From Peptostreptococcaceae bacterium (GTDB taxonomy: Bacteria; Bacillota; Clostridia; Peptostreptococcales; Filifactoraceae): a stretch of 45,526 nucleotides of DNA. Location: positions 1-45,526 of the forward strand of contig JAUMYO010000010.1 of assembly GCA_030528605.1 (NCBI GenBank). Direction: 5' to 3'. How positions within the stretch are numbered: position 1 is the stretch's first letter; each line of letters starts with the position of its first letter. The notes under the pieces are model-generated. The model was not told the DNA's origin, made no database searches, and was given only the letters and a program-made list of their open reading frames with translations. The position numbers and the translations under genes were made by a program. Below are positions 26,074 through 41,050 of this stretch, one piece after another.

Positions 26074-27393
26074 TCATATGATATTCGGCGTGATCCGTCG
26101 CTTGATCTGATAACGATAGTACAGATTCGCGCTCATATAAAACAGGTAGCGGGCAGGATGTCTGAAAAATTCTTTTCGCAAGATCGTCCTCTCGAGGATC
26201 GACGGGATCTCAAAGACTTTATCATACAGAGCCCAATATGCCTTAGTCAGTTCTTCGGGTGTCATATTTTTAGGGATGTGGACCGCCTGACTTCCGTTGT
26301 AGGAATACATATCTTCGATGTAGATGCGATCCGCCGCCTTCATTTCATCATAAAACTTCGTACCCGGGATCGGCGTCAGGATATAGAACCTCGGGACAAC
26401 GACTTTATTCTTGCGGATAAAATCCGCCGTGAGCCGTATCGACTCCAAAGTATCCCCATCCGCCCCCACTACCATTTCGGTAGAGATGTCGATCCCGGCA
26501 GATCGGATATTGCGGATCAGGACCGGATAGTCTTTGACTCTCGCCCAAGACTTGTTCATACTGTCCAGACTTTCCTGCAATATACTCTCCAAACCGAAGC
26601 TCAGCGTAGTACAACCGCTCTTTGCCAACTTTTTCAAAAGCTCGGCATCCTTCCCGATCTCGATGGAGCACTGACTCATCCATTTCATCCGAAGCGGGAT
26701 GATATGGTCAAGCAGCTCCATCATATACTCTCGATCGGACATGATATTGTCATCGAGCAACATAAATTTGCGAAAACCGAGCGATCGGATATGCTCGATA
26801 TCCCGTATGACATCCGGGATCGGACGACGGATATATTTGTTTTTATACAGGCAATATACCGAGCAAAAGCTGCAGGATTTCGGACATCCGCGTCCGGCCT
26901 GGACCGGCAACAGATCCCCGATCTTCTTGTTCAATACCAGATCGAACCGTGGAAGTGGCGTATCGATCCTCGTGATCGGGATCCTGTACTCGTTTTTCAG
27001 CTCGCCTTTTTCAAGATCTGCGATCATTTGGGGATAAGCATGCTCTCCATCGCCAACGATCACCGTATCACAATACTTTTTGGCTTCCTCCGCCATCAGG
27101 CTGACCATGTAGCCACCCATGAATACCGTCTTTCCTCGACGCTTAAATTCCTTCGCAATATCGATGCTGCGAACGACAGCATGCCCCATACTGCCGATCC
27201 CGATCAACGAGGCATCGGTATCGAAAGGAATGTCTTCTATCGTCTCAAATATGATCTCAACCTCCCAGTCCGGCGGAGTAAGTGCCGCAAGCAACGGCAT
27301 CGCCAGACCGACAAAATACAATCTGGATTTCTTGATCGGCTTCTTGTCATTATCATAGGGAGAAGATTGGATCAATAAAATTTTCTTCTTCAT
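26074..27393 (-). CDS. B12-binding-domain radical SAM protein 1 (divergent member)
   Basis: A 439-residue protein. Residues 1-140 resemble a cobalamin-binding Rossmann domain (KKKILLIQSSPYD, then IGIGSMGH and FMGGYMVSLM), without the DxHxxG base-off motif. The radical SAM core has the cluster motif Cys170-x3-Cys174-x2-Cys177 (GRGCPKSCSFCSVY), then MLLDDNIMSD and an LTPIPGTKFYDEM segment. The C-terminal 40 residues are aromatic and basic. Enzymes of this class perform methylations, cyclisations or C-C couplings on unactivated carbons. It is the most diverged of the four in this cluster and the last in the array. The ATG at 27393 is preferred over an upstream TTG at 27435. Substrate unknown. 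Confidence 0.85.
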   Translation of the reverse strand: MKKKILLIQSSPYDNDKKPIKKSRLYFVGLAMPLLAALTPPDWEVEIIFETIEDIPFDTDASLIGIGSMGHAVVRSIDIAKEFKRRGKTVFMGGYMVSLMAEEAKKYCDTVIVGDGEHAYPQMIADLEKGELKNEYRIPITRIDTPLPRFDLVLNKKIGDLLPVQAGRGCPKSCSFCSVYCLYKNKYIRRPIPDVIRDIEHIRSLGFRKFMLLDDNIMSDREYMMELLDHIIPLRMKWMSQCSIEIGKDAELLKKLAKSGCTTLSFGLESILQESLDSMNKSWARVKDYPVLIRNIRSAGIDISTEMVVGADGDTLESIRLTADFIRKNKVVVPRFYILTPIPGTKFYDEMKAADRIYIEDMYSYNGSQAVHIPKNMTPEELTKAYWALYDKVFEIPSILERTILRKEFFRHPARYLFYMSANLYYRYQIKRRITPNII

Positions 27394-27522
27394 TTTTCTG
27401 TTGTTCCAAACAATATGGCATAAATCGATTATCAATAAGCATTCAGACCAGATCCATTTATTTCAACAAGGCGATGACCCATCATCATTTTTTGTAGATT
27501 TGGATCCTGATCTCATCTTGTC

Positions 27523-28962
27523 CTAACCGCCGTGAAACATTTTTTTGAAGTATTGCCAGCTGACAAAACTGCTTCCCCAGGACATTTTGAGCACCTCGAA
27601 GAATCCGTATTTCCGTATCATCCTCAAAATACTCTTAGGTCTCATCACGATGCGATAATACAGACGGATGATCTGCCAATAATAAGCGCGGATGCTCATC
27701 TCCGTCGGATGGAGCACGATATGCGCAAGATCCCATTTTGCATGATCTTCACGCGGTACGATGATCTGTTCTTCATAGCTTCCGAAAATATCGGTCCCCG
27801 GCAATGGCGTCAGCGGCTGTAGATTGACAAAGCTGATATCCATCTCCTTTATATTTTTCTCAAGCACCCGAAAATCTTCTTTGCTGTAATCTAAATTCAG
27901 GATCATCGTCGCATAGAGTTCGATATTATATTTTTTCAAAATATCTACGGCTTGACGATTGATCTCGACCGTCGTTTTTTTATTGAAATCCATCAGATCT
28001 TTTTTTCGGACCGATTCGATCCCGACGATCACCGCCCGAAGTCCGTTCTTGGCAAGCCTTGCCATCAACGGCTCATTCTTTGCGATAAAATCCGCACGCC
28101 CATAGACCAAAAAACGCTTGTCGAGCTTCTCTTGTTCTAGCAGTTCGCAAAAATGCGTCAGGCGGGCAGGATCAAACAAAAAATCATCATCGACGATATA
28201 GATCTCTTGCTCCGGAATGCTTTTCAACTCCTCGACCACGGATCCGATGTCTCTGGCAAAATATTTTCCGCCCGTCACTTCTTTGCAAAAGCAGAAACTG
28301 CAGTTAAAAGGACAGCCAAAGGAAGTTTTTATCAGCGCGCAGGGGTTGTGGAACATATAATAGTAGCGGCTTCTGTATCTTGCCACTTTATCCCTCGCCG
28401 GCGGTTTATAAGGAAAGCTCGCTACCTTCCGTTGAATGATCTTGGGATGATAGGTCCCTTCGATATGGATCTTTCCGTCTATCCGATGAAGATCTCCCCT
28501 TTTCGGAGTCTCCTCCTGTTCCTCTTTTCCCTCGATCCCGATGTGAGGTGTTTTTTTTCGATCGATCGCATGATCGACGATCCGCTGAAATGTGCCGATC
28601 GGATCGCTGCATATGATATGATCGATCGCCTCATCCACAAAGTCCTCCGGTACGACCTCGGCATGGACTCCTCCTGCCACCGTGATCGTATCCGGTAAAA
28701 TGCTTTTGACGATCCTTGAATACTCCTTGATGATCCCAACATGGGTGATATAGCCCGTTATACCGACAATATCCGGCAAATACTCCCGAATGTAAAAGTC
28801 GATCGGTTTTTTCTCCAAGATCATGTCCAAGATCATGACCTCGGCTTTATCTTCCGATATATTCCCCGCCAAATACTCCAGTTCGAGCGGCTCGCATATC
28901 ATCACATGCTGCAGTCCGATCGTCTCCTTCGGCGGTTTCGGTCTGATCAAAAGAATCTTCAT
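27523..28962 (-). CDS. B12-binding-domain radical SAM protein 2
   Basis: A 479-residue protein. N-terminal cobalamin-binding-like domain: MKILLIRPKPPKETIGLQHV, then DIVGITGYITHVGI and TVAGGVHAEVVPEDF. The cluster motif is Cys217-x3-Cys221-x2-Cys224 (SFGCPFNCSFCFC). The radical SAM barrel contains IYIVDDDFLFD and a PLTPLPGTDIFGSYEE motif; near the C terminus HIVLHPTEMSIRAYYW closely matches the two sister proteins at 29808 and 32169. The last 40 residues are hydrophobic/aromatic and could touch a membrane. It carries an insert of about 40 charged residues between the two domains (about 135-175) that the others lack. Substrate not predictable; a lipid or envelope molecule is an inference. Confidence 0.85.
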   Translation of the reverse strand: MKILLIRPKPPKETIGLQHVMICEPLELEYLAGNISEDKAEVMILDMILEKKPIDFYIREYLPDIVGITGYITHVGIIKEYSRIVKSILPDTITVAGGVHAEVVPEDFVDEAIDHIICSDPIGTFQRIVDHAIDRKKTPHIGIEGKEEQEETPKRGDLHRIDGKIHIEGTYHPKIIQRKVASFPYKPPARDKVARYRSRYYYMFHNPCALIKTSFGCPFNCSFCFCKEVTGGKYFARDIGSVVEELKSIPEQEIYIVDDDFLFDPARLTHFCELLEQEKLDKRFLVYGRADFIAKNEPLMARLAKNGLRAVIVGIESVRKKDLMDFNKKTTVEINRQAVDILKKYNIELYATMILNLDYSKEDFRVLEKNIKEMDISFVNLQPLTPLPGTDIFGSYEEQIIVPREDHAKWDLAHIVLHPTEMSIRAYYWQIIRLYYRIVMRPKSILRMIRKYGFFEVLKMSWGSSFVSWQYFKKMFHGG

Positions 28963-29158
28963 CCCAACTCTCCAAATCTAGTTTTCTTGATATAATAAGC
29001 GCACCACAAGCCTGTCATTGCAAATACTCTGACAAAAAGATCCTGTCGACATCCGGTCCGCTCCTCACCGATAAGACATCTTGCAGCTTTGCCGTGTAAC
29101 ATGATCAACTGAAATGATATCGTGGTGATCCGGCAGGATCTCAGTATCCGATCTGAAA

Positions 29159-29803
29159 CTACGCTTTGCTCCTACGAAAAACGGTCACCAGGATCGACGG
29201 CATCCAAAAGCTTTCCCGCAGAACAAACATCTCCTCACACTTCAGCTCAGGGGGTGAGATGGCGATCACTCCCTTCTTTGAAAGATATTTTGCGGAACCC
29301 GTCGTCAGCTTGGTCAGCAGAAAGGCGATGCGATCATAAAGATCATTCGCAGAGCCATGCGCAAGGATCAAAAGTCCTCCCTCACGAAGAAGGTCCGTCA
29401 TATCGCGGACCGCTTTCCGCTGATCCGGATAATATGGCAGCGAATGCGTACAGGTTATGAGATCAAAAGTTTTTTCGATCGTATCCAGTTCGGAAACATC
29501 CTTCAGCAAAAAGTCGGCATCGATCCCTTTTGATCTTGCGATATCGAGCATTCCGCTTGAATAATCGATCCCGGTGAGATGGACCTTCTTCTCTCCCGAC
29601 TTATTCGGCAAAAGATCCTTTTCGAGATCCTCCAGAAGCTGTCCCGTACCGCATCCGATGTCCAGTATCTCCTTCAGCTCCAATTTATTGTATTTTTTTA
29701 TCATTTCGATCACGGCATTTCTTGTGATGCCGAGCGAATATTTCTGCATGAGCAGACGATCGTATCGGCTCGACCAATAATTCCAGATCCTCTTGTTTGA
29801 CAT
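29159..29803 (-). CDS. Class I SAM-dependent methyltransferase
   Basis: A 214-residue methyltransferase with motif I ILDIGCGTGQLLEDLE (about residues 46-61), the acidic GIDYSSGMLDIAR that binds the SAM ribose, and FDLITCTHSLPYYPD plus LREGGLLILAHG further on. The C-terminal segment around residues 155-205 is hydrophobic (RIAFLLTKLTT, ESFWMPSILVTVFRR), similar to enzymes acting on quinones or lipids. It starts 4 bases after the stop of radical SAM protein 3, so the two are translated together and probably act in the same pathway. Confidence 0.85.
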   Translation of the reverse strand: MSNKRIWNYWSSRYDRLLMQKYSLGITRNAVIEMIKKYNKLELKEILDIGCGTGQLLEDLEKDLLPNKSGEKKVHLTGIDYSSGMLDIARSKGIDADFLLKDVSELDTIEKTFDLITCTHSLPYYPDQRKAVRDMTDLLREGGLLILAHGSANDLYDRIAFLLTKLTTGSAKYLSKKGVIAISPPELKCEEMFVLRESFWMPSILVTVFRRSKA

Positions 29804-29807
29804 ATCC

Positions 29808-31181
29808 CTACCGATCCAAATATATTTTTCGCAGCAAGTAGCGCGACAACATCCTTTTAAAGTATTGTAGATCCAAAAACTGATAGAGTCCCGCTTTTCG
29901 GGCTCTTTTATAAAGCTTCAGAAACAGTTCCCGATAGTATCGATAAAATTGTCTCTTGCTGAGATTTCTCGGTCGTACGACCAGATGAAGAAAATCCCAG
30001 TCCTCGATATTATCGCTGATAAGCTCATGTTTGTATTCCTCATAGAGCGGCGTCCCCGGGATCGGAGTGAAGATCGAGATCGTTACATGGAGCACCTGAT
30101 TCTTGACGACCCAATCATAGATCCGATCAAAATCTTCTTTTGTCGCTTCGATCCCCACGATCATCAGCGCGATACATTCCCCGCCGGCTCCGTTGATGAC
30201 GCGGACCGCTTCTTCGTTATTGGTAACATTCGTTCTTTTATTGTAGGCGAGCAATTCTTTGTCGCTCGTTGCTTCCAACCCCACCAAAAAATACTTGAAG
30301 CCGATCTCTACCAGAGCTTTGACGATATCCTCGTTTTGAGAAACAAAGTCAGCTCGCGCATAGCAGGTGTAGGTCTTTCGGATACCATTTTCTTTCACCA
30401 ACCGTATGAATTCCCAAAGCCTTTTTTTGTCCACGAGAAAATCATCGTCCACGATCTGGATATTATCGACCTCAATGCCTTTCAGCTCTTCGATCACAAG
30501 CTCCAGATCACGGGCTTGGTATGCTCCCTTATTCAGCAGCGTACAATAGCAGAACTTACAGTCAAAAGGACAGCTGAACGAGGTCTTGAGGGTCGCCATC
30601 GGCGTCATATCAAGATATCGAAAACGATGCTTATGTTTATAGAAGAAGCTCCGATCCGGTATCGGCAAAGAATCGATGTCGATCCGCTCATATGGATTTA
30701 CGATCCATTCTCCGTTCTTATCCCGAAAACAAAGGCCATTGATCTCCCGAAAGTCTTTTGCTATCGGTGCTCGTTCTTTTACCGCTTCGATCGCGCGGAT
30801 CAGATCCACAAAACCTTCCACAGACTCACTTCTTGCGATAAAATCGATATTCTCGTCATAAAAGCGTTCATAGTTCAGCTGCGCATGTACCCCGCCAACG
30901 ATGGTCACGATGCTTTTCTGAAATTTTTTTGCGTCTTTGAACATCCGCTTCATCACATTTTCCTGTGTCAAATATCCCGTGATCGCAACCACATCGGGTC
31001 GATAGCTCGCCAAAACTTTTCTAAAAGGCTTATTCTCACAGATGTAATCAAAGATCTGATCCTCATAACCCGCATGCATCAGCCCGGTATGAAGATATTC
31101 CAGCTCCAGCGGCTCGTTGTCCAACATCCCCGTAAAGCTCAAATCGTTCGGTGCAGGCGGTCTTACCAAAAGCACTCTCAT
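29808..31181 (-). CDS. B12-binding-domain radical SAM protein 3
   Basis: A 457-residue protein. N-terminal domain: MRVLLVRPPAPNDLSFTGML, DVVAITGYLTQENV and TIVGGVHAQLNYERF. Cluster motif Cys204-x3-Cys208-x2-Cys211 (SFSCPFDCKFCYC). The barrel shows IQIVDDDFLVDKKRLWEF and SIFTPIPGTPLYEEY, and near the end HLVVRPRNLSKRQFYRYY, the same C-terminal signature as in its sisters. The C-terminal tail is rich in Tyr, Phe, Leu and Arg. A strong AAAAGGAGG precedes the start. It heads a two-gene unit with the methyltransferase that follows after 4 bases. Reaction and substrate unknown. Confidence 0.86.
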   Translation of the reverse strand: MRVLLVRPPAPNDLSFTGMLDNEPLELEYLHTGLMHAGYEDQIFDYICENKPFRKVLASYRPDVVAITGYLTQENVMKRMFKDAKKFQKSIVTIVGGVHAQLNYERFYDENIDFIARSESVEGFVDLIRAIEAVKERAPIAKDFREINGLCFRDKNGEWIVNPYERIDIDSLPIPDRSFFYKHKHRFRYLDMTPMATLKTSFSCPFDCKFCYCTLLNKGAYQARDLELVIEELKGIEVDNIQIVDDDFLVDKKRLWEFIRLVKENGIRKTYTCYARADFVSQNEDIVKALVEIGFKYFLVGLEATSDKELLAYNKRTNVTNNEEAVRVINGAGGECIALMIVGIEATKEDFDRIYDWVVKNQVLHVTISIFTPIPGTPLYEEYKHELISDNIEDWDFLHLVVRPRNLSKRQFYRYYRELFLKLYKRARKAGLYQFLDLQYFKRMLSRYLLRKIYLDR

Positions 31182-31360
31182 CTCATCCTCCTTTTCCCGG
31201 CAGATCTCTCATCTCTTAAAAACTTATACTACGACCTTTTTATCTCATCATATCGATCCGATCTCTATGAGCGATATCCCTAAACATCGGTCAGAGCGAT
31301 CTGCCGATGGTGTCGAATAGATCATGAAAATATTTCTATGTTTCCTATCAGGCTTCGGTA

Positions 31361-32185
31361 TTATTTTTGTGCCGGCAGCAGATCGATCACAACATACTCC
31401 GGACGATTATAGAAGCGCGGGATCCTAGTGGATTCTCTTGCAAGACCCCTGCTTACGATCATCCGATATCCCTTGAGCTCATATAGTCCGCCCGCAAATT
31501 TCGGGAAAAATCCCTGATTCGGAGCGAGCAGACCGTTCAGGATCTTCGGGATCCGCCACTGACCTCCATGGGCATGCCCCGCCATCGACAGATCAAAATC
31601 CTTATACATTTCATATCGCTCCGGGCGATGCGTCAGCAATAGAGAAAAGATCTCCTTGTCCACTCCGGATCGCAATGCTTTGAGCTGGATTTGCCACTGA
31701 GACTCTCCGACCTCCGGATCATCGATCCCGAAAAGATCCAGACGCTGACCACGAATGTCCAGCTCTACCTTCGATCCTTCCAAAACCTGAATACCATACA
31801 AGGAAACGGTCCGCTTCAAACGATCGAGCTCATCGGTCCAGCATTCGTGATTCCCCGATACATAGTAGCTCGGGTAGCTTTTGCCTGCCCATTGTAAAAA
31901 TTCCCAGGCTTTTTGCTCCGGAAGATCGTCATCGATGATATCTCCTGCAAGCAATAAGATATCCGGCTGACTTTGCTCGACGGCATCGATCAGAGTCCTT
32001 TGACCTTCTCCATAATCACAACTGTGAAGGTCCGCAACAAGAGCGATCCTTACCGGCTTTTCGATCCTGCTGTCCTCGACGGAATAGTTTACGGTAAGGA
32101 GTCTATGATCCAGACCGATCCCGGTCAAAAGGATCACAGCTCCTGTAAACATCAACCACTTTTTATTCTTAAAGATCTTCTTCAC
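31361..32185 (-). CDS. Membrane-anchored calcineurin-like metallophosphoesterase (YkuE-like)
   Basis: A 274-residue protein with one N-terminal helix (about residues 9-24) and a metallophosphoesterase domain behind it. Metal ligands are visible in order: ADLHS (Asp52, His54), LAGDIIDD (about 79-86), SGNHE (110-114), LLTHRPERY and SMAGHAHGG. This is the YkuE-like layout, an outside-facing phosphoesterase, sometimes linked to lipid or nucleotide-sugar hydrolysis. The GTG start at 32185 has AGGAG 6 bases upstream and overlaps the end of radical SAM protein 4 by 17 bases, so it is translationally coupled to it. The coupling is the main hint to its role in the cluster pathway. Confidence 0.87.
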   Translation of the reverse strand: MKKIFKNKKWLMFTGAVILLTGIGLDHRLLTVNYSVEDSRIEKPVRIALVADLHSCDYGEGQRTLIDAVEQSQPDILLLAGDIIDDDLPEQKAWEFLQWAGKSYPSYYVSGNHECWTDELDRLKRTVSLYGIQVLEGSKVELDIRGQRLDLFGIDDPEVGESQWQIQLKALRSGVDKEIFSLLLTHRPERYEMYKDFDLSMAGHAHGGQWRIPKILNGLLAPNQGFFPKFAGGLYELKGYRMIVSRGLARESTRIPRFYNRPEYVVIDLLPAQK

Positions 32186-33596
32186 TTATTCTCCTGTTCT
32201 TGCGTATCTCCCGTTCTCTGATCCCTGCGTTCCAAAAGTTCTTGATATAGACTGAGATCAAAGTATTGAATCCGAACAACATCTTCAGCGTATTCCCGAT
32301 CGGAAAGGCTTTTACCGTGTATTTCAAGGAATGCCAGTTCAGATTGACGCCGAAAGTAAATTTGAGCACTTCCCAATAGTATCTGCGAAGACTCATTTTA
32401 GAAGGCATGATCAACACATCTCCAAAATTCCATTTCTCGTAATCCGTCTCATCATAGAGCAAGCGATCTTTATATTGCTCGAATAAAGGGGTAAGCGGAT
32501 GAGGGTTCAGCGGCGAAAAAGTCAAAAGATCCGGCTTGAGCAATTTTTTGTAAGCATTCAGCTTTTTGAAATCCGATCGATCCCAATCCGGATGAAGGAT
32601 GAACGATCCCCAGCATGCGATGCCGTTTGCTCGCAAGATCTCGGTCGCCTTCAAATTTTCGTCCACGGTAGCCGCTTTATTATATTTTTTTAGCTGCGCA
32701 TCGTCAAAGCTTTCGTATCCCACGATCACTGCGATCAGTCCATTTTTTCGCAAGCGTTCAAAAAGCTCCGGCTTTTCCAAGATCGAATTGACCGATCCGT
32801 AGCAGATATATCTTTTTGTTATCTTCTTGTATTCCAGCAGATCGCAAAAACGCTCCAACCTTTTCCGATTGATCAAGAAATCATTATCGCAGATCATGAT
32901 ATAAGGCTCATCCAGTGCTTGGATCTGGCTTACGATATCATCGATAGCGATCTCTCGAAGAGCGGGCCCTTCCAGTTTCCAACGCACACAAAATTCGCAT
33001 CGGTTACGGCATCCGAAGGCGGTTTGGACGACAGCACAAGGCTGAAATCCTACATACCGATATTCCTTACGATACCTTTTCGTAGATTCGGTGTCCGGTA
33101 CGATATACTCATTAAAACAAAATTCTTTCTCGTTTACAAAATCGAGCTCTTTACTATAGATCCCTTCGATCGGCTCGAGGAGTCGCTCTCCGCTTCGGAT
33201 CCGATCCATAAGCTCTTTATAGTTTGCTCTCGTCGTAGATCTAAAAACATGGTCCACGCTTTCATCAAAAAAAGAATTGGGATAGACCGTCGCCTGTACC
33301 CCGCCTACGATGACGGTGGTATGAGGATCGAATGCTTTTACGATCTTTGCGATCGACAGCACATTTTCCACATCGGTACATTGAGACGTGATCCCGACGG
33401 CATCCGGTCTGAGATCCTTCAGATAATCCTCCACCTTGGCATTCGTTTCGACCATAAAATCTGCGAGCAAAACCTCATGACCCTGCTCTTTTAAGATCGT
33501 CGAAACGCATTCGATCCCCAGTGGTTCTCCGAACAAAAAATTTTTTACGGTAGTAATATTTTTATTGACCCAAGGTCTTATCAACAAAACCTTCAT
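32169..33596 (-). CDS. B12-binding-domain radical SAM protein 4
   Basis: A 475-residue protein of the same sub-family as the two before: MKVLLIRPWVNKNITTV, DAVGITSQCTDVEN and VIVGGVQATVYPNSF in the cobalamin-binding-like domain; cluster motif Cys196-x3-Cys200-x2-Cys203 (AFGCRNRCEFCVRW); IMICDNDFLINRKRLERF in the barrel; FSPLNPHPLTPLFEQYKD and VLIMPSKMSLRRYYWEVLKF towards the end. It differs by Gln instead of His in the GGVHA motif, by Arg/Asn-rich cluster surroundings, and by a longer C-terminal tail. GGGGAAG precedes the start. It overlaps the phosphoesterase gene. Substrate unknown. Confidence 0.85.
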   Translation of the reverse strand: MKVLLIRPWVNKNITTVKNFLFGEPLGIECVSTILKEQGHEVLLADFMVETNAKVEDYLKDLRPDAVGITSQCTDVENVLSIAKIVKAFDPHTTVIVGGVQATVYPNSFFDESVDHVFRSTTRANYKELMDRIRSGERLLEPIEGIYSKELDFVNEKEFCFNEYIVPDTESTKRYRKEYRYVGFQPCAVVQTAFGCRNRCEFCVRWKLEGPALREIAIDDIVSQIQALDEPYIMICDNDFLINRKRLERFCDLLEYKKITKRYICYGSVNSILEKPELFERLRKNGLIAVIVGYESFDDAQLKKYNKAATVDENLKATEILRANGIACWGSFILHPDWDRSDFKKLNAYKKLLKPDLLTFSPLNPHPLTPLFEQYKDRLLYDETDYEKWNFGDVLIMPSKMSLRRYYWEVLKFTFGVNLNWHSLKYTVKAFPIGNTLKMLFGFNTLISVYIKNFWNAGIREREIRKNRRISEEDL

Positions 33597-33738: not shown

Positions 33739-34725
33739 TCATTCCTTCTCCGAAGAGCTGAGCTCAGGATCCTTCATACAGCGGATCCGATAAGACCATC
33801 GATGCTCCAGACTTTTTGCGATCTTTTCCAGCCATCGGTCGGGGAGATAACGACTTGCGAGATGAAAATACAATGCCTTGGGTGTCGCACCGACTCTGCT
33901 TTTGGAATAAGAAGTCGTCTGTCCCAAAAATATCTTCTTCCCCTGCCCAAGTTCTATCAGCTTGATCAGGATATTCAGATAGAGATCATAGGCTTTGTTT
34001 TTGGTATGATCAAAACCGCAAAACAAAAATATCAGCTCGTCACTCGACTCTTTGATCTGAAAAAAGCCGACCGACACATCTTGTTCATCTTTTATACGAT
34101 ATAACTGAGCCGGGCATCGTCGAAAAAAATCGATCCGCAACTTTTCCAGTTTTCCTTCGGAGCGTTCATAAACCTCCTCATAATAACGGTACATCTTAAG
34201 ATCGAGATCCTCATTTTCCATCTTTTCAAACCGAAGCCCCTTGCCCCTTCGGATCGCCTTGCGGATACGGTAGCGATAATGGCTTCGCATTCGAGAGAGA
34301 TGACCTTCCGGCGTATCTACGCTTAATTCAAAGGTCGGCAATGTGAGTCCTTTCGGTAAAAAGAGCCCGCCGTCCGTGTTTAGGATCAGGATCAGTCCGA
34401 AGGTTTGAAGATATGCCGATAGCGTTGCAAGCGAGGCTCTCGGACAGCAATAGCCTGCGGAAGCGACCGAGAGGGGGATCCCTGCTATCTTGATCGGGAT
34501 CTTGATGCAGAACTTCTGGCTAAAAGTAAGGATATCGAGCCAAAGGCGATAGGTCACCAATACGATCCCCTTTGCTTCATTCAGATGATACCGCTGATCA
34601 CAAGGGTTCACCTCTTCCAAAAAAGACAGAAAACTTCTCTTTTGAAAAAAATTCTCCGTCAGATCATCCCATAAAGGTGGAAGATCTTCCGCTCTTGCAA
34701 AGATCTTGAATTTTTCATTTATCAT
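33739..34725 (-). CDS. FemAB/GNAT-like acyltransferase (peptidoglycan- or polysaccharide-type)
   Basis: A 328-residue protein with a degenerate first GNAT-like half and a second half bearing SRMRSHYRYRIRKAIRRGKG, the basic helix typical of FemAB-like and Acetyltransf_6 proteins, followed by VGFFQIKESSDELIFLFCGFDHTKN and AYDLYLNILIKLIELGQGKKI, the acyl-carrier site of such enzymes. A KIFLGQTTSYSKSRVGATP motif completes the fold. Members transfer aminoacyl or acyl groups to cell-wall precursors or surface polymers. Its ATG overlaps the stop of the upstream acetyltransferase gene (ATGA). Substrate is not predictable. Confidence 0.68.
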   Translation of the reverse strand: MINEKFKIFARAEDLPPLWDDLTENFFQKRSFLSFLEEVNPCDQRYHLNEAKGIVLVTYRLWLDILTFSQKFCIKIPIKIAGIPLSVASAGYCCPRASLATLSAYLQTFGLILILNTDGGLFLPKGLTLPTFELSVDTPEGHLSRMRSHYRYRIRKAIRRGKGLRFEKMENEDLDLKMYRYYEEVYERSEGKLEKLRIDFFRRCPAQLYRIKDEQDVSVGFFQIKESSDELIFLFCGFDHTKNKAYDLYLNILIKLIELGQGKKIFLGQTTSYSKSRVGATPKALYFHLASRYLPDRWLEKIAKSLEHRWSYRIRCMKDPELSSSEKE

Positions 34726-35825
34726 ATATCGATCTCAAACACTTTATATCGTGCACTTTCCTCTTTCAAAAATTTTGAAGTCAAATTCGATGACGCGTGG
34801 TTTCCCGATAAGATCCATCCGGATCCTATGTATCGATACCGATCTTTATTAAGCTCATAACAATGTTTCAAAAGTGCATAGATCGCACCGGTCCTTCGGT
34901 ACTTGGGAATAACACCGAATTCCGTCAGTTTGATCGTATCGATGCTTTTCGGAAACAGACGACTTTTGATAAAAGCTTTTACCCCCAGCTCCTGCCCGGG
35001 ACCGATCAGCTGGTTGAAATCAGGATACCATAGCACAAACGCGACCGGTCCTCCGTCCTTGTAGGCAAACAGGATGTTCTCCGGCTTTAGAAAGAGCTTG
35101 TACTCCTTGAACAGCTCGATATCTTCTTTTTCTCGGCTCTCGTAATAATAATCGTGCTCCGTAAAAGCTTGATTATTGATAAAACTATAGGTCTTCGCCG
35201 ACTCCTCGATATTTTTGAGATCGGCATGACGGATCTCAAAATGCGCCAAACGCTCCTGCAATTTTGGCGAGATCTTCAGATCCAGCGCCCCGATCTCTCC
35301 GCGAAAACTTACCAGTTCCTTCACCCTGCTCGCAAAGGGTTCCAGATTCTTTGCATAATAGCTCAGATTATAAGAGCTTCCGATGCTTCGTATCTTATCA
35401 AAACCCTCCGACAGGATCCCCAGACCGTAATTGACATGCAGATCCAGTCCGATCAATATCTTGGCGATCCCCCGCTCTTTGGCAAAAATCTTCGCGTGAT
35501 CAATGATCGATCCTGCGACCGACCGATCATCCTCCATCTCTAAAAAAGCGATCTGTACAGTGTCTTTCATACGATCGATCACCGCCAGAAAAGCAGATGC
35601 AACGATCTCATCCCCTTTTTCCGCAACGATCGGAACGATCTCCGATGTTTTTTGGATCTCCATCTTTCTTTTGAAAAGAGCTTTGATCGTCCTCGTCTGA
35701 TTATCACGATAATACGGATCTCCCGCATAAAGCTTTTTATGAAATTTTATGATCGCATCAAGGTCTTCATGCCCCGCCTTCCGAACTACGATCTTTTCAT
35801 CCCTTCGATCCCTCATGATCTCCAT
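34722..35825 (-). CDS. GNAT-superfamily acyltransferase (367 aa)
   Basis: A 367-residue protein whose N-terminal half (about 10-150) has a weak GNAT fold (KIVVRKAGHEDLDAIIKFHK, EIVASAFLAVID) and whose C-terminal half has a second: AYKDGGPVAFVLWYPDFNQL, LTEFGVIPKYRRTGAIYALL (the acetyl-CoA loop) and YIGSGWILSGNHASSNLTSK. Double-GNAT proteins of this size (YghO-like) are found near lipid and wall genes. It is the first gene after a leader with two hairpins and overlaps the FemAB-like gene by 4 bases. The start ATG at 35825 has only a weak ribosome binding site; ATG at 35816 with GGAG is possible. Confidence 0.68.
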   Translation of the reverse strand: MEIMRDRRDEKIVVRKAGHEDLDAIIKFHKKLYAGDPYYRDNQTRTIKALFKRKMEIQKTSEIVPIVAEKGDEIVASAFLAVIDRMKDTVQIAFLEMEDDRSVAGSIIDHAKIFAKERGIAKILIGLDLHVNYGLGILSEGFDKIRSIGSSYNLSYYAKNLEPFASRVKELVSFRGEIGALDLKISPKLQERLAHFEIRHADLKNIEESAKTYSFINNQAFTEHDYYYESREKEDIELFKEYKLFLKPENILFAYKDGGPVAFVLWYPDFNQLIGPGQELGVKAFIKSRLFPKSIDTIKLTEFGVIPKYRRTGAIYALLKHCYELNKDRYRYIGSGWILSGNHASSNLTSKFLKEESARYKVFEIDI

Positions 35826-36173: not shown

Positions 36174-36923
36174 TCAGCTTCCCATTTCAAGATCTTCCAT
36201 CTCTTCCACCAGATGTTTCCAATAATATTTCGGCAGATTGCCTTTCTGCAGCTTACGATCTACTTTTTCACGGATCGATATCGTACGATGGAAAAGCTTC
36301 CACAATTCCGCAAATACGAGCTCGTCATCGCTCCACTCAGCATTGACAGCTTCCGTAAAAAAGATCTCCGTATCCTTGGTGTCATAATAAGCAAGCATTC
36401 CTCTTTTCTTATCAAAGATCGCAAAGCGTTCATTCCGAAGCCGCTCTCTAAAATGAGGGATGATGATCGTCAAGATATCGTTCTTCGGTTCGATCGTTGA
36501 AAGCAAGGTACCGTCCTTCATCTCCCTGAAACGCACCAAACCCAGATATCGATGTCTTTCGCCGAGGACCTGTTTCACATATTTTCTCATCTTCATCACA
36601 TCATCATCCATCATATCCATCACGCGCGGACCGACCTCGATCGCCTTGTAGATCGTCTTTATGGCTGCCGTATCTTTGTCTTCCGAGCTCGACAAAAAAC
36701 AGGCTTGAACATCCCGAAAAAACTGATCGGATATTTCGTTCCTAATATACTTCTCCACCCTTCGGGCTTTAGCAAGATCCGTTTGGATAAATGATCCATC
36801 CTGATCCAGCGCGATCTGTCTAGGTTCGCTGCTGACGCTTGCGATTCCTGAGCGGAATTTGTACGCTTCAAAAACCGTGCTCAAAAAACCGTCAAAACTT
36901 CCGTCATATCGATAATTTTTCAT
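36174..36923 (-). CDS. TIGR03915-family (DUF4130) putative DNA metabolism protein
   Basis: A 249-residue protein starting MKNYRYDGSFDGFLSTVFEAY, the hallmark of TIGR03915, and ending in LWKLFHRTISIREKVDRKLQK and LPKYYWKHLVEEM. It contains the family segment RYLGLVRFREMKDGTLLSTIEPKNDI (in two parts here about residues 128-155). The family always occurs with the radical SAM family TIGR03916 encoded upstream and is thought to act in DNA repair or modification, possibly as a uracil-DNA-glycosylase partner, without biochemical proof that I know of. The start at 36923 is chosen because GGAGG lies 5 bases ahead; the two genes overlap by 20 bases. Confidence 0.88.
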   Translation of the reverse strand: MKNYRYDGSFDGFLSTVFEAYKFRSGIASVSSEPRQIALDQDGSFIQTDLAKARRVEKYIRNEISDQFFRDVQACFLSSSEDKDTAAIKTIYKAIEVGPRVMDMMDDDVMKMRKYVKQVLGERHRYLGLVRFREMKDGTLLSTIEPKNDILTIIIPHFRERLRNERFAIFDKKRGMLAYYDTKDTEIFFTEAVNAEWSDDELVFAELWKLFHRTISIREKVDRKLQKGNLPKYYWKHLVEEMEDLEMGS

Positions 36924-38220
36924 CATTGCCTCCATTCAACAGTTTGATCCCTGCAAAAGGATCCGAAAGTCTGTCCTTTTGATCGAAGAAGCTGAGTTGA
37001 ACGGGAGAAGACGTCTCATTTTCGAGCAAAAGACCGCGTATATATTGCTTGTCATCCTTACGGCAACCGTAAAACTCTCCATCGACGGTGATGAAATATT
37101 TTGCTCTTTTGAAAACGACACCGATCTTTTTGAGATGCTCGTAGCGGATCCGTCCATGCTTTCTCGCTTTGATGATCCGAAGCGCAGAAGTGACCCCCAA
37201 TCCCGGCACGCGCAAAAGCTCTTCATAAGATGCTCGATTGATCTCGACCGGAAAATGATGATAATTGTTGATCGCCCAATTCGCCTTCGGATCCAAAAGC
37301 GGATCAAAAAAAGGCATCTCTTCGCTCAAAAGCTCCTTGGCTTCAAATTTATAAAACCTCAGCAACCAGTCCGCCTGATAGAGTCGGTGCTCCCGAAGAG
37401 GTGAAGTTTGCTGAAGATCGGCGAGGATCCCTTTTTTATTGACGGGAATGTACGCCGAATAATACACTCTTTTAAGGTCAAAGTTTTTATACAGATATTC
37501 GCTCTTGTTCAATATGGTGTAGTCGCTCTCACCGGTCGCCCCGATGATCATCTGTGTCGTTTGCCCCGCAGGAACAAAGGATGGCGTACTCTTGATCAAA
37601 GCACGTTCATCCGCACGCTGGATCTGTCTTTCAAGGACACAGCTCATCGATCCCACGATATCGCTCACTTTTTTATCCGGTGCCAGCAATCGCAGTCCGC
37701 GGTTATCCGCAGTTTCGATATTTACCGAGACCCGATCCACATACATCCCTAAGGTATGGATCAGTTCCCGACTTGCTCCGGGAATGACTTTCATATGGAT
37801 ATATCCGTTAAAAGCTTCCTTGATCCGTAACCTGCGGGCGATCTCGATCAGCCTTTCCATCGTATGATCCGGATCTTTTAAGATGCCGGAACTCAAAAAA
37901 AGCCCTTCGATATAATTTCTTCGATAAAAGTTGATCGTCAGATCCACGATCTCGTCCGGAGTCAGCGTCGCACGCTCGATATCGTTGCTTCTCCGGTTGA
38001 TACAATACTCACAGTCATAGATACAATGATTCGTCATCAGTATCTTGAGTAACGAAATACATCGTCCGTCAGCGGACCAGGAATGACAGATCCCACTTTT
38101 AGCGGCACTTCCGATCCCATCCTTCGTATTTTTTCTCGTGCTCCCGCTGGAGGAACAAGAGACATCATATTTTGCCGAATCACTCAAGATCCTTAATTTT
38201 TCCTCGATCGTTCTGCTCAT
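36904..38220 (-). CDS. TIGR03916 putative DNA modification/repair radical SAM protein
   Basis: A 438-residue radical SAM protein with cluster motif Cys66-x3-Cys70-x2-Cys73 (NHCIYDCEYC), a barrel with EGLFLSSGILKDPD and TQMIIGATGESD, and a C-terminal helix-hairpin-helix INRASYEELLRVPGLGVTSA that suggests DNA binding. The first 50 residues are rich in Ser and Lys and have GICHSWSADGRCISLLK, also a family mark. The ATG at 38220 lies 8 bases after AAGGAGGG. Translation is coupled to the TIGR03915 partner by overlap. This pair is conserved in Clostridia and elsewhere; its exact reaction is not established. Confidence 0.92.
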   Translation of the reverse strand: MSRTIEEKLRILSDSAKYDVSCSSSGSTRKNTKDGIGSAAKSGICHSWSADGRCISLLKILMTNHCIYDCEYCINRRSNDIERATLTPDEIVDLTINFYRRNYIEGLFLSSGILKDPDHTMERLIEIARRLRIKEAFNGYIHMKVIPGASRELIHTLGMYVDRVSVNIETADNRGLRLLAPDKKVSDIVGSMSCVLERQIQRADERALIKSTPSFVPAGQTTQMIIGATGESDYTILNKSEYLYKNFDLKRVYYSAYIPVNKKGILADLQQTSPLREHRLYQADWLLRFYKFEAKELLSEEMPFFDPLLDPKANWAINNYHHFPVEINRASYEELLRVPGLGVTSALRIIKARKHGRIRYEHLKKIGVVFKRAKYFITVDGEFYGCRKDDKQYIRGLLLENETSSPVQLSFFDQKDRLSDPFAGIKLLNGGNDEKLSI

Positions 38221-38432
38221 ACGATACTTCCCTCCTTCTATCCGATCCGCTTCCGCTTTCCAAGATCTTTCCGGTATAAGATCCAAAGCGGTATGAGTTT
38301 TCTACTTTCGGAAAAATATTCATTCTGTAAGTATGATTTTTCCTATTTTGTCGTTTTTTTCCGACCTAAGCTGATTATAACACAAAATAAGAAAATAAAC
38401 CGGAAATTTTCTTATTTTATTCTTTTTTTACG

Positions 38433-38489: not shown

Positions 38490-40643
38490 CTACTCAAACG
38501 ACCTTTGATCGAAAGGATAGTGATCCAAGTAACTCCGAAATACCTGTACAAATCCCATGGAGAGATCGACATGGACCTCGTATTTATGATCTTTATCGGT
38601 GTAATAGTCCTGATAGTCATCATCGATGGATATCTTGCGATCCAAAACGGCGTTCTTGTCAACAAACTCATGTATAAATTCATTAGCAAGCTCCATTCCT
38701 TCTTCTTCCGTCAGTTTTTTATAAAATATCCGATCCGTATTCTTATCTGCCGGATCCTCTTTGCTGAATACATCCTGATATTTTTTCGCTTTTTCTAAAT
38801 TCAGATAAAGAATCGAAGGCACTTCCTCCGTTCCGGAGTTGAAAGCTTTATCTTTCAACATGCTGAGATCTCCTCCGCTGACATGATGATAATACCTTCC
38901 CGGCGAGTGCTTCCAAACTCCAAGGTCTTCAAGCTCTGTTTGGTAGGTATAAAACTTCAGAGTAAAATTTATAAGTTTATCTCCCTTAAACGTTGTACTC
39001 AGCTTCAATAGATTCCCGTACTTCTCTTGATCCGCTGACGGAACATATTTTCCAAAGTACTGTTCATCGATATTGCCGATCTCCTCACTAAAAGCGAGAT
39101 CGATCATGTCCAGATCCTCCGTTAGAAGATCCGGAAGATATTTATCCGTGATCTTCTCTACGGTCCGGGCATTTTTCATCGCTTGGTGTCGAGCATTTTC
39201 TTTATCATAAGGAAAGCCAAGCGTTTTATACAGAAGTTTAAAGTTTTCTATGGTCTGTCCCGCCTCATTCAGATCATAAGGGAAGCTATTATCGGACTCT
39301 CTCGCCAGATGCTCATCCATCTCTTCACGTTTCAAAAGATGGTGAAACTCTCCCCAGCCTTCACAAAGAAATGTAAATCGGACCCATTCTAAATTATCGA
39401 CCAAAGAAAAAAGTATCGTTGCATCTGCATTAAAAAAGTCGGTATCCGCACCCGGTCGTATCTCTCGCCATTCTTCTTCCGACATCATCTTTTTCTCCGA
39501 CTCCAGATAAGGTCGGATCCTTTTTAGCGTCGTTTCATCGATCGTATAATAAACTTGGACTCCGTACGGCGGCTCCGATGAATGTATCCTGAATTCACGT
39601 TTAGAATATTTGTACGGAATATAAAGACGATCGATGATATTTTCGACTTTAGAATTATCTCCAACATATTTCGTCTTAAACCCATAGAGATCTTTTGCAT
39701 TATTGATGAGAGGACCGTTATTTTCAGTAAAGAAAAAAACGCCGGCAAAAACGATCAAGGCACAAGCGGCAAGGATCGATATGAACTTTGGCTTTTGATA
39801 TTTTAGGACGGATAGGATCCTCTTCCTGATCGAGCTTTCGCCAAAAGCTACTCTCGTTTCAAAAAAGCTCTTTTTAGAAGCAAGTTTGAGCAATGTGTCG
39901 GAATAATCCTTCTTGTGACCGCTCCCGAGAAGGTCGAGCACTTTTTCGTCACAAGACAATTCCATATCTTCCGACAGCCAATGGAAAGCAAGCCAAACAA
40001 AAGGATTGAGCCAGTGTAGGCAAAGGATGAGCCAACAAAATGATTTGATCAAATGATCGAAACGAGAAACATGCACTCTTTCATGTTCCAGGATACATCT
40101 CATCTCGATATCATTCAAGTTTTCCGGAATATATATTCGAGGTCTCAAGCCAAATACAAATGCGGTATCGATCCGATCGGATACATAGATATTTTCATAC
40201 AAATGCTTGGATGTTTTAAGATCTTTATTCAAAATATATATTTCATAGATCGATCGCAGGATCAAAAACCCCAAGCCCGCGATCCAAAGAAGCGACAGAA
40301 GTCGTATCGGGTCAAGCGATGGGCTCAAGTTCAAAGCGGGATCATTTCCGGATATGAACAAAGAGCCTTCAGAGATCTCGTCCATCGGGATTCCGGGAGA
40401 AGAGATCATCCCATCTACCATAAACCGATCTGTCGTACCGATCACTTTCTTTGAAAAAAGATCCGGTCCAAAAGCAACTTTGAAGGAAAAAGGTACGCAT
40501 AGTTTTGCAAAAGCCATGACCCAAAGAGCGTAAAGATACCTGTTGGGTAATTCTTTTACAAAAGATCTTATCAGTAGAACGAACAGAATAAAATAAGTCC
40601 CCTGAATGCTCAGATCCAGCGTCGACACGAAAAGATCTTTCAT
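38490..40643 (-). CDS. BlaR1-like M56 metallopeptidase with DUF4825-like sensor part
   Basis: A 717-residue membrane protein. Several helices in the first 310 residues enclose the M56 zinc protease site HERVH (His187-Glu188-x2-His191) and the downstream Glu in EDMELSCDEKVL. A further helix at about 289-306 precedes the outside part. That part begins with KDLYGFKTKYVGDNSKVENI at about 317, the start typical of DUF4825, and not with a penicillin-binding (SxxK) domain as in true BlaR1/MecR1. So the signal is probably not a beta-lactam. The start overlaps the stop of blaI by 4 bases (ATGA); the protease most likely inactivates that repressor on signal. Confidence 0.87.
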   Translation of the reverse strand: MKDLFVSTLDLSIQGTYFILFVLLIRSFVKELPNRYLYALWVMAFAKLCVPFSFKVAFGPDLFSKKVIGTTDRFMVDGMISSPGIPMDEISEGSLFISGNDPALNLSPSLDPIRLLSLLWIAGLGFLILRSIYEIYILNKDLKTSKHLYENIYVSDRIDTAFVFGLRPRIYIPENLNDIEMRCILEHERVHVSRFDHLIKSFCWLILCLHWLNPFVWLAFHWLSEDMELSCDEKVLDLLGSGHKKDYSDTLLKLASKKSFFETRVAFGESSIRKRILSVLKYQKPKFISILAACALIVFAGVFFFTENNGPLINNAKDLYGFKTKYVGDNSKVENIIDRLYIPYKYSKREFRIHSSEPPYGVQVYYTIDETTLKRIRPYLESEKKMMSEEEWREIRPGADTDFFNADATILFSLVDNLEWVRFTFLCEGWGEFHHLLKREEMDEHLARESDNSFPYDLNEAGQTIENFKLLYKTLGFPYDKENARHQAMKNARTVEKITDKYLPDLLTEDLDMIDLAFSEEIGNIDEQYFGKYVPSADQEKYGNLLKLSTTFKGDKLINFTLKFYTYQTELEDLGVWKHSPGRYYHHVSGGDLSMLKDKAFNSGTEEVPSILYLNLEKAKKYQDVFSKEDPADKNTDRIFYKKLTEEEGMELANEFIHEFVDKNAVLDRKISIDDDYQDYYTDKDHKYEVHVDLSMGFVQVFRSYLDHYPFDQRSFE

Positions 40644-41011
40644 CGGTATTCCTCCTCATGTTCATCGATCAGTTTTTTCAGATCTTCGATCTCTTTTCTC
40701 GACAATCTCTTCTCTCTGACAAATGCCGCCAAAAAACTTGGCAAAGAGCCACTAAAAGCGTTTAACACAAACGCATGGCTGTTCATGCTCCTATATTTTT
40801 CATGAGAGATCCTTGATGTTACGATCGAATCCGAATTTTCAAAATAACCGATATTGCAAAGTTTTTTAAGCACGGTATAGGTAGTAGATTTTTTCCATCG
40901 GAGCTTTTCTTCACAAAGCTTCACCAATTCGCCTGAAGCGATCGGTTCATTCTCCCATACGATCCGCGCAAATTCCAATTCTTTTTCACCGAGTTCATAG
41001 TATTTGCCCAT
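40640..41011 (-). CDS. blaI: BlaI/MecI-family transcriptional repressor
   Basis: A 123-residue BlaI/CopY-type repressor: ELGEKELEFARIVWENEPIA, the helix-turn-helix LVKLCEEKLRWKKSTTYTVL and a conserved Lys/Leu-rich second part with FENSDSIVTSRISHEKY, then a C-terminal dimerisation region LPSFLAAFVREKRLSRKEIE. The ATG at 41011 follows AAAGGA at 7 bases; a TTG one codon earlier is less likely. Two inverted repeats of the form GTCTAT-N5-ATAGAC lie 40-85 bases upstream and probably are its operators. Confidence 0.92.
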   Translation of the reverse strand: MGKYYELGEKELEFARIVWENEPIASGELVKLCEEKLRWKKSTTYTVLKKLCNIGYFENSDSIVTSRISHEKYRSMNSHAFVLNAFSGSLPSFLAAFVREKRLSRKEIEDLKKLIDEHEEEYR

Positions 41012-41050
41012 CAAATTTTCCTTTCCATTCCGATGATGATGTGATCTGAT

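Follow-up and report, generated by a model that had tools for sequence, protein, structure and literature searches.

Which compound is made by a row of cobalamin-type radical S-adenosylmethionine (SAM) enzymes that is joined to a methyltransferase and a pair of acyltransferases? The question is raised by a locus of a Peptostreptococcaceae bacterium (Clostridia), on contig JAUMYO010000010.1 of assembly GCA_030528605.1. The stretch analyzed, called here the window, covers positions 1 to 45,526 of this contig. Four radical SAM open reading frames (ORFs) of 440 to 479 residues lie on its minus strand between 26074 and 33596, and two acyltransferase genes, A7 and A8, which overlap each other by 4 bases, lie directly upstream on the same strand. 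The cluster recurs in 33 genomes and can be said with high confidence to encode one dedicated pathway. Its product has about an even chance of being an N-acylated, membrane-associated metabolite of the aminolipid or lipo-amino-acid type that is modified by three to five B12-radical steps.

Enzymes of the B12-radical SAM type act on unactivated carbons, where they introduce methyl groups, rings or bonds; of the many known sequences, most have no assigned function. Judging by its sequence, each enzyme of the cluster belongs to a known superfamily; what appears to be new is the combination, a B12-radical SAM biosynthetic cluster. Among the open-access papers searched, none described this gene set, in agreement with the initial annotation of the locus, which knew of no such pathway; an earlier description elsewhere is possible.

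The locus and its genes

The genes are listed below by window position, with labels (R, A, MT and PE) coined in this analysis.

34722..35825, minus strand: A8, tandem-GNAT N-acyltransferase of the YghO/bacterial ceramide synthase-like family, 367 residues; core (GNAT in Pfam; full-length YghO profile match)
33739..34725, minus strand: A7, predicted FemX/FemAB-type GNAT-fold transferase, 328 residues; core (Acetyltransf_6 in most orthologues)
32169..33596, minus strand: R6, B12-binding radical SAM protein with a GCxxxCxFCxRW signature, 475 residues; accessory, 23/33 genomes (Pfam, alignment, tree)
31361..32185, minus strand: PE, membrane-anchored calcineurin-like phosphoesterase, YaeI/YkuE-like, 274 residues; genus-specific insertion, not core
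29808..31181, minus strand: R4, B12-binding radical SAM protein with a SCPxxCxFCYCT-type signature, 457 residues; core, the most variable core radical SAM protein, one to three copies
29159..29803, minus strand: MT, class I SAM-dependent methyltransferase, 214 residues; 29/33 genomes, fused to R2 in two species
27523..28962, minus strand: R2, B12-binding radical SAM protein with a GCPxxCxFCFCK signature, 479 residues; core
26074..27393, minus strand: R1, B12-binding radical SAM protein with a RGCPxxCSFCSVY signature; core, separate lineage, best conserved gene

The initial annotation had described four B12-type radical SAM proteins with intact cluster motifs on one strand, together with a methyltransferase and an anchored phosphoesterase. 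These ORFs are real, Pfam and motif alignment agree on the four, and both MT and PE are present on the same strand, PE with a hydrophobic anchor at its N terminus. R1 is read from an ATG (26074-27393), while its longest version (26074-27435) begins with TTG. The interval first proposed for the cluster, 26074-33596, is real, but the conserved block reaches 35825 since A7 and A8 belong to it. A profile search of the source genome counted 25 matches for radical SAM and 8 for the B12 domain; the four adjacent B12-radical SAM genes thus make up half of its B12-domain genes.

Conservation and distribution of the cluster

The block A8-A7-R4-MT-R2-R1-R6 recurs, with local reordering, in 33 genomes, the carrier set being defined as the genomes that hold R1 and R2 by profiles. 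Conservation of the gene neighborhood, which had been proposed as a check, therefore extends over dozens of genomes, and chance is excluded because of this recurrence. The spread is patchy over many families of the phylum, and the flanking genes differ and are unrelated between families. A7 and R4 are present in every carrier (33/33 each), followed by A8 (32/33), MT (29/33), R6 (23/33) and PE (3/33). In the sole genome that lacks A8, the locus ends at a contig end. PE occurs only in three species of one genus (G000, G004 and G005), and the phosphoesterase, originally counted as a member of the pathway, is not part of its core.

The R4 protein (P0004), used as a query with a fixed E-value limit per draw, matched 7 of the 11 genomes at family level, 24 of the 297 at order level and 15 of the 391 at class level, and recovered adjacent triplets of R2, R4 and R6 relatives. 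Since R4 had served as the query, its universality was checked separately with R1. Over the class, the close matches of R1 all fell in genomes already found with R4, except one at a contig end, and cluster members (at least 49% identity to R1) were separated by a gap from all other B12-radical SAM proteins (at most 39%). A draw over the phylum with the R1 query gave seven further genomes, and all seven have A8, A7, MT, R2 and R4 clustered; for one of them (G1023), R1 was counted as the query match itself. The named record of Acetoanaerobium noterae also holds A8, A7, MT, R2 and R4, which brings the further loci to eight. NZ_CP154629.1 (L105; 2.6 Mb), a PLSDB plasmid entry for this species, is probably a chromosome on account of its size.

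Profiles of A8 and A7, run on 45 genomes, matched 14 of 14 carriers and none of 31 non-carriers at a comparable score, one non-carrier holding a remote A8 relative (83 bits). Three to five B12-radical SAM enzymes are tied to this fixed acyltransferase pair and appear or vanish with it, including in the cultivable A. noterae. In 151 of 183 pairs, same-strand neighbors overlap or leave a gap of no more than 30 bases. Natural fusions join MT to R2 in two species (L071:9923-12148 and L073:10075-12297) and R2 to R1 in one species, as a protein of 920 residues (L030:14592-17354). Linkage, short gaps or overlaps and fusions point to an operon-like functional unit, and the earlier suggestion of a dedicated multi-step pathway that includes the methyltransferase and the acyltransferases agrees well with this conserved block.

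The identity of R1 among carriers is 57-90% in nearly all and 49% in G577. Two carriers of one genus (G001 and G002) share 62% identity in R1, and two of different genera (G001 and G010) share 83%. The cluster trees follow the species groups only loosely, as would be expected if the block had moved as one unit or had been lost repeatedly. Variant clusters occur in G469 (L096) and G404 (L099); they lack MT and R6, hold three R4-type radical SAM genes and are oriented with these divergent from R2-R1-A8-A7.

Rfam searches found no riboswitch near the clusters, the matches being RAGATH-18, T-box and RT-5, inconsistently placed; control by a B12 riboswitch was rejected on this ground. Promoter and terminator scans did no better than shuffles. 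A defense system was rejected as an identity for the locus, with only weak cross-matches to generic radical SAM, methyltransferase and phosphoesterase models.

Radical SAM proteins

R1, R2, R4 and R6 all score above the Pfam cut-off for Radical_SAM (4/4), and in the R2, R4 and R6 proteins a B12-binding domain (PF02310) above cut-off lies N-terminal to the radical SAM domain. The B12-binding match of R1 is borderline, at 31.4 bits against a cut-off of 32.1 bits when the protein is searched and 34.3 bits, above cut-off, in the genome search. The CxxxCxxC motif is intact in all four proteins and in 127 of 127 aligned orthologues. By architecture, the four fall in the B12-domain class of cobalamin-dependent radical SAM enzymes, and their use of cobalamin is predicted.

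In a tree of 134 radical SAM proteins, R1, R2, R4 and R6 form orthologous groups, each spanning families. R2, R4 and R6, with two stand-alone relatives of R4, make up one clade (support 99/98) when HpnR from a Kozakia plasmid, BchE and an S. cattleyicolor protein (putative ThnL) serve as references; the sister of this clade is formed by HpnR and the S. cattleyicolor protein. R1 lies elsewhere in the tree, in a clade of its own. On this topology, R2, R4 and R6 are ancient paralogues whose duplication predates their spread over families, and the duplication that had been proposed for these three proteins is borne out. The description of all four as one paralogous set does not hold, since R1, which comes from a separate lineage, cannot be counted as a recent paralogue of the others. 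The two stand-alone R4-type genes (L095:8781-10157 in G662 and L098:7036-8364 in G610) are nested within the R4 clade and lie in other gene settings.

Close orthology to a characterized enzyme, which the initial annotation had considered, is not indicated, as none of the four reaches a curated equivalog cut-off in NCBIfam. Among solved structures, R1 and R2 have only remote radical SAM matches. The best curated matches of R1 are PhpK/HpnJ/BchE-type models at 76-86 bits, all far under cut-off, and R1 scores 60 bits against the HpnR model (TIGR04367; cut-off 650). For R2, R4 and R6, the HpnR model is the best NCBIfam match. HpnR, the hopanoid C-3 methylase, shares with them the B12-binding and radical SAM architecture and is their nearest curated model. 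R2, R4 and R6 might on this account be HpnR orthologues that methylate hopanoids at C-3, yet they score only 153-178 bits against the cut-off of 650 and have about 23-24% identity to HpnR, and no full match to a squalene-hopene cyclase was found in 22 carriers, which hold only fragments of at most about 31 bits. Hopanoid C-3 methylation is disfavored by these scores and by the lack of the cyclase, and is scarcely credible.

A second lipid product to be considered is a tail-to-tail coupled, membrane-spanning lipid, for which the radical SAM proteins would act as Tes or bacterial Mss do. Joining unactivated carbons is the kind of reaction that radical SAM enzymes catalyze. Tes carries additional Fe-S clusters and lacks a B12 domain, whereas R1, R2, R4 and R6 are B12-type proteins related to HpnR, BchE and PhpK and are set apart from Tes and Mss by their architecture. 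Membrane-spanning lipids and Mss are known in Clostridia, and Mss is described as sharing the catalytic architecture of Tes (PMC13274423). However, the coupling of diacylglycerols would not need three to five paralogues together with N-acyltransferases, and a pathway of this kind is improbable here.

The C termini of the four radical SAM clades are basic and rich in aromatic residues. Of the last 130 residues, the 40 that form the most basic stretch carry on average a net charge of +7 to +8 and include six to nine aromatics; the corresponding values are +10 and 10 for BchE, +6 and 4 for HpnR, -1 and 5 for ThnL, +3 and 4 for ThnP, and +7 and 4 for ThnK. With so few controls, these C termini are suggestive of contact with the membrane.

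The A8 and A7 acyltransferases

A8 matches only GNAT in Pfam. Its profile aligns over the full length with YghO of Escherichia coli (probability 99.4, E 1.5e-21) and with a Sphingomonas protein at the CerS position (E 8.7e-26), and matches a Roseomonas YghO-like protein over the C-terminal three quarters. YghO-like genes on plasmids were surveyed for clues to the function of the family. The Sphingomonas parapaucimobilis plasmid region encodes an NAD(P)H-binding protein, an acyl carrier protein, a pyridoxal phosphate (PLP) aminotransferase, LptF, LptG, a desaturase and an N-acetyltransferase (YghO-like). In Caulobacter, the sphingolipid genes are cerR, acpR, spt, lptF2, lptG2 and cerS, and the N-acyltransferase is CC_1154 (PMC11324152). 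Since the gene order of S. parapaucimobilis is the Caulobacter order cerR-acpR-spt-lptF2-lptG2-cerS, its YghO-like protein is placed at the CerS position. In Roseomonas, the YghO-like gene has LptF/LptG with a desaturase on one side and a nucleotidyltransferase on the other, an arrangement that corresponds to CC_1155, CC_1154 and CC_1153. From their gene positions, the Sphingomonas and Roseomonas proteins are taken to be ceramide synthases. CerS of Caulobacter is a peripheral membrane protein with N-acyltransferase activity (PMC11087976, PMC11324152).

By its full-length match to the CerS-position protein of a sphingolipid cluster, A8 belongs to a family that very probably includes bacterial ceramide synthase. 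Bacterial ceramide synthase (bCerS or CerS, CC_1154) and YghO are homologous to A8 over the full length and share its tandem GNAT arrangement. They differ from it in sequence (about 25% identity) and in setting, as the A8 cluster has no Spt or CerR and A8 always stands alongside A7 and B12-radical SAM genes. The cluster thereby connects a ceramide-synthase-like family with B12-radical chemistry. A canonical sphingolipid pathway, with A8 as the ceramide synthase itself, would draw on the homology of A8 to YghO and to the CerS-position protein, but the block lacks genes for serine palmitoyltransferase and ceramide reductase. No alpha-oxoamine synthase matched at E 1e-15 or better in five carriers whose completeness is estimated at 97-100% (G007, G379, G509, G469 and G577), and where the enzyme occurs elsewhere it is found in non-carriers as well. 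The ceramide pathway is disfavored on these grounds and is very unlikely to be the function of the cluster.

A YghO-like GNAT is also encoded on Rhizobiaceae plasmids (L108:5975-11117, L109:5996-11090 and L112:6034-11054), within a conserved row of five genes that also encodes a ThiF-family adenylyltransferase and proteins without a known function. A pairing like that of A8 and A7 was considered for these plasmids and rejected, as the neighbor of the GNAT is not A7-like.

The A7 of the window has no Pfam match and no match among solved structures by sequence, and Acetyltransf_6 is found in 27 of 31 A7 orthologues. Its three-sequence AlphaFold model is weak (mean predicted local distance difference test score, pLDDT, 56.5), with Sbb17, Sba18, MprF and FemX as the best Protein Data Bank (PDB) matches by Foldseek. 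The structure models of both A8 and A7 are of low confidence, and all that is drawn from them is the fold family of A7, as a lead. The lead is that A7 may be a FemX-type transferase with a double GNAT fold; the use of aminoacyl-tRNA, on which FemX, MprF and Sbb17 depend, is predicted for it only by likeness of fold, at about 15% identity and from a weak model.

Proposed pathway and the nature of the product

The pathway proposed for an N-acylated, membrane-associated metabolite builds on the gene content of the cluster, the co-occurrence, linkage and orthology of its genes, their intact motifs, and the homology of A8 to the YghO/CerS-position family; from these we infer a substrate, donors, an order of steps, types of reaction and a lipid product. 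A8 would transfer an acyl chain onto an amine from primary metabolism, and a second group, acyl or aminoacyl, would come from A7. Two radical steps at unactivated carbons, both obligatory and most simply explained as C-methylations, would be catalyzed next by R1 and R2 as cytosolic, membrane-bound enzymes. The R4-type and R6-type paralogues would contribute one to three extra steps that vary between species, and MT may methylate a polar atom or an intermediate.

A lipid product is supported by the homology of A8 to the CerS-position protein and by the basic, aromatic C termini of the radical SAM proteins, which resemble that of BchE and not that of ThnL. The hydrophobic substrate originally proposed gains from these two points and is plausible but unproven. 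As a more tentative extension, the products could be a new class of amide-linked membrane lipids of anaerobic Bacillota, multiply C-methylated or otherwise radical-modified, which would be sphingolipid-like without serine palmitoyltransferase, undergo up to five B12-radical steps and vary by gain and loss of paralogues.

Several findings weigh against the proposed pathway. The block has no conserved transporter, acyl carrier protein, or acyl-activating or head-group enzyme. Members of the YghO family also occur outside sphingolipid loci, and YghO itself has, to our knowledge, no known function. The comparison of C termini includes a handful of controls, among which that of ThnK is also basic. 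A7, though its model is weak, resembles aminoacyl-tRNA-dependent enzymes of natural-product pathways. The A7 gene of carrier G007 (L026, G007:C1:519286-520230) has one TGA and two TAA codons in frame and may be decaying or mis-assembled, the remaining cluster being intact.

The radical SAM proteins provide a further point of this kind. On a megaplasmid of S. cattleyicolor, a close TokK homologue (1278 bits; ThnK) and an asparagine-synthase-like enzyme adjoin a 474-residue protein that scores 222 bits against the HpnR model and whose position marks it as the presumed ThnL. ThnL catalyzes thioether formation on a carbapenem and does not methylate (PMC13331322). The putative ThnL thus scores higher against the HpnR model than R2, R4 and R6 do, and a non-lipid substrate and C-S bond formation are within the range of an HpnR-like B12-radical SAM protein. 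The substrate class and the reaction type of these enzymes are therefore not readable from homology, and the argument from lipid-acting relatives in the initial annotation loses its force.

The product may instead be a non-lipid natural product. Aminoacyl-tRNA or acyl-CoA would then supply the GNAT/FemX pair, which would build a small peptide- or nucleoside-like scaffold, and the B12-radical SAM enzymes would decorate it as in thienamycin; we regard this as possible but less likely than the lipid-like product. The thienamycin cluster (ThnK, ThnL and ThnP) likewise has three B12-radical SAM enzymes in one cluster, and ThnL, with HpnR, is the nearest tree reference of R2, R4 and R6. The best fold matches of A7 are streptothricin-type aminoacyl-tRNA-dependent peptide synthases. 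The patchy spread, the variation in accessory genes and the tree positions that disagree with the species grouping are also what one expects of specialized metabolism. However, the block is accompanied by no conserved transporter, regulator or resistance gene, and R1 is unusually well conserved for an enzyme of specialized metabolism. A8 is in a CerS-like family and the C-terminal stretches of the radical SAM proteins look membrane-facing. The thienamycin cluster also differs in its carbapenem substrate and in thioether formation by ThnL, and the S. cattleyicolor region (L123) has no homologue of A8 or A7.

A lipid product could be a new class of membrane lipids or biomarkers of anaerobes; a non-lipid one would represent a new family of anaerobic natural products. 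The search for it is tractable, as carriers and non-carriers of the same genus can be compared.

Neighboring genes

A further radical SAM ORF (36904-38286) lies in the window and overlaps an ORF of 253 residues (together 36174-38286); the pair presumably resembles paired radical SAM and DNA-repair-like proteins. Next to it, at 38490-41014, a putative BlaR1-like metalloprotease-type sensor is overlapped by a small ORF for a predicted MecI/BlaI-like regulator.

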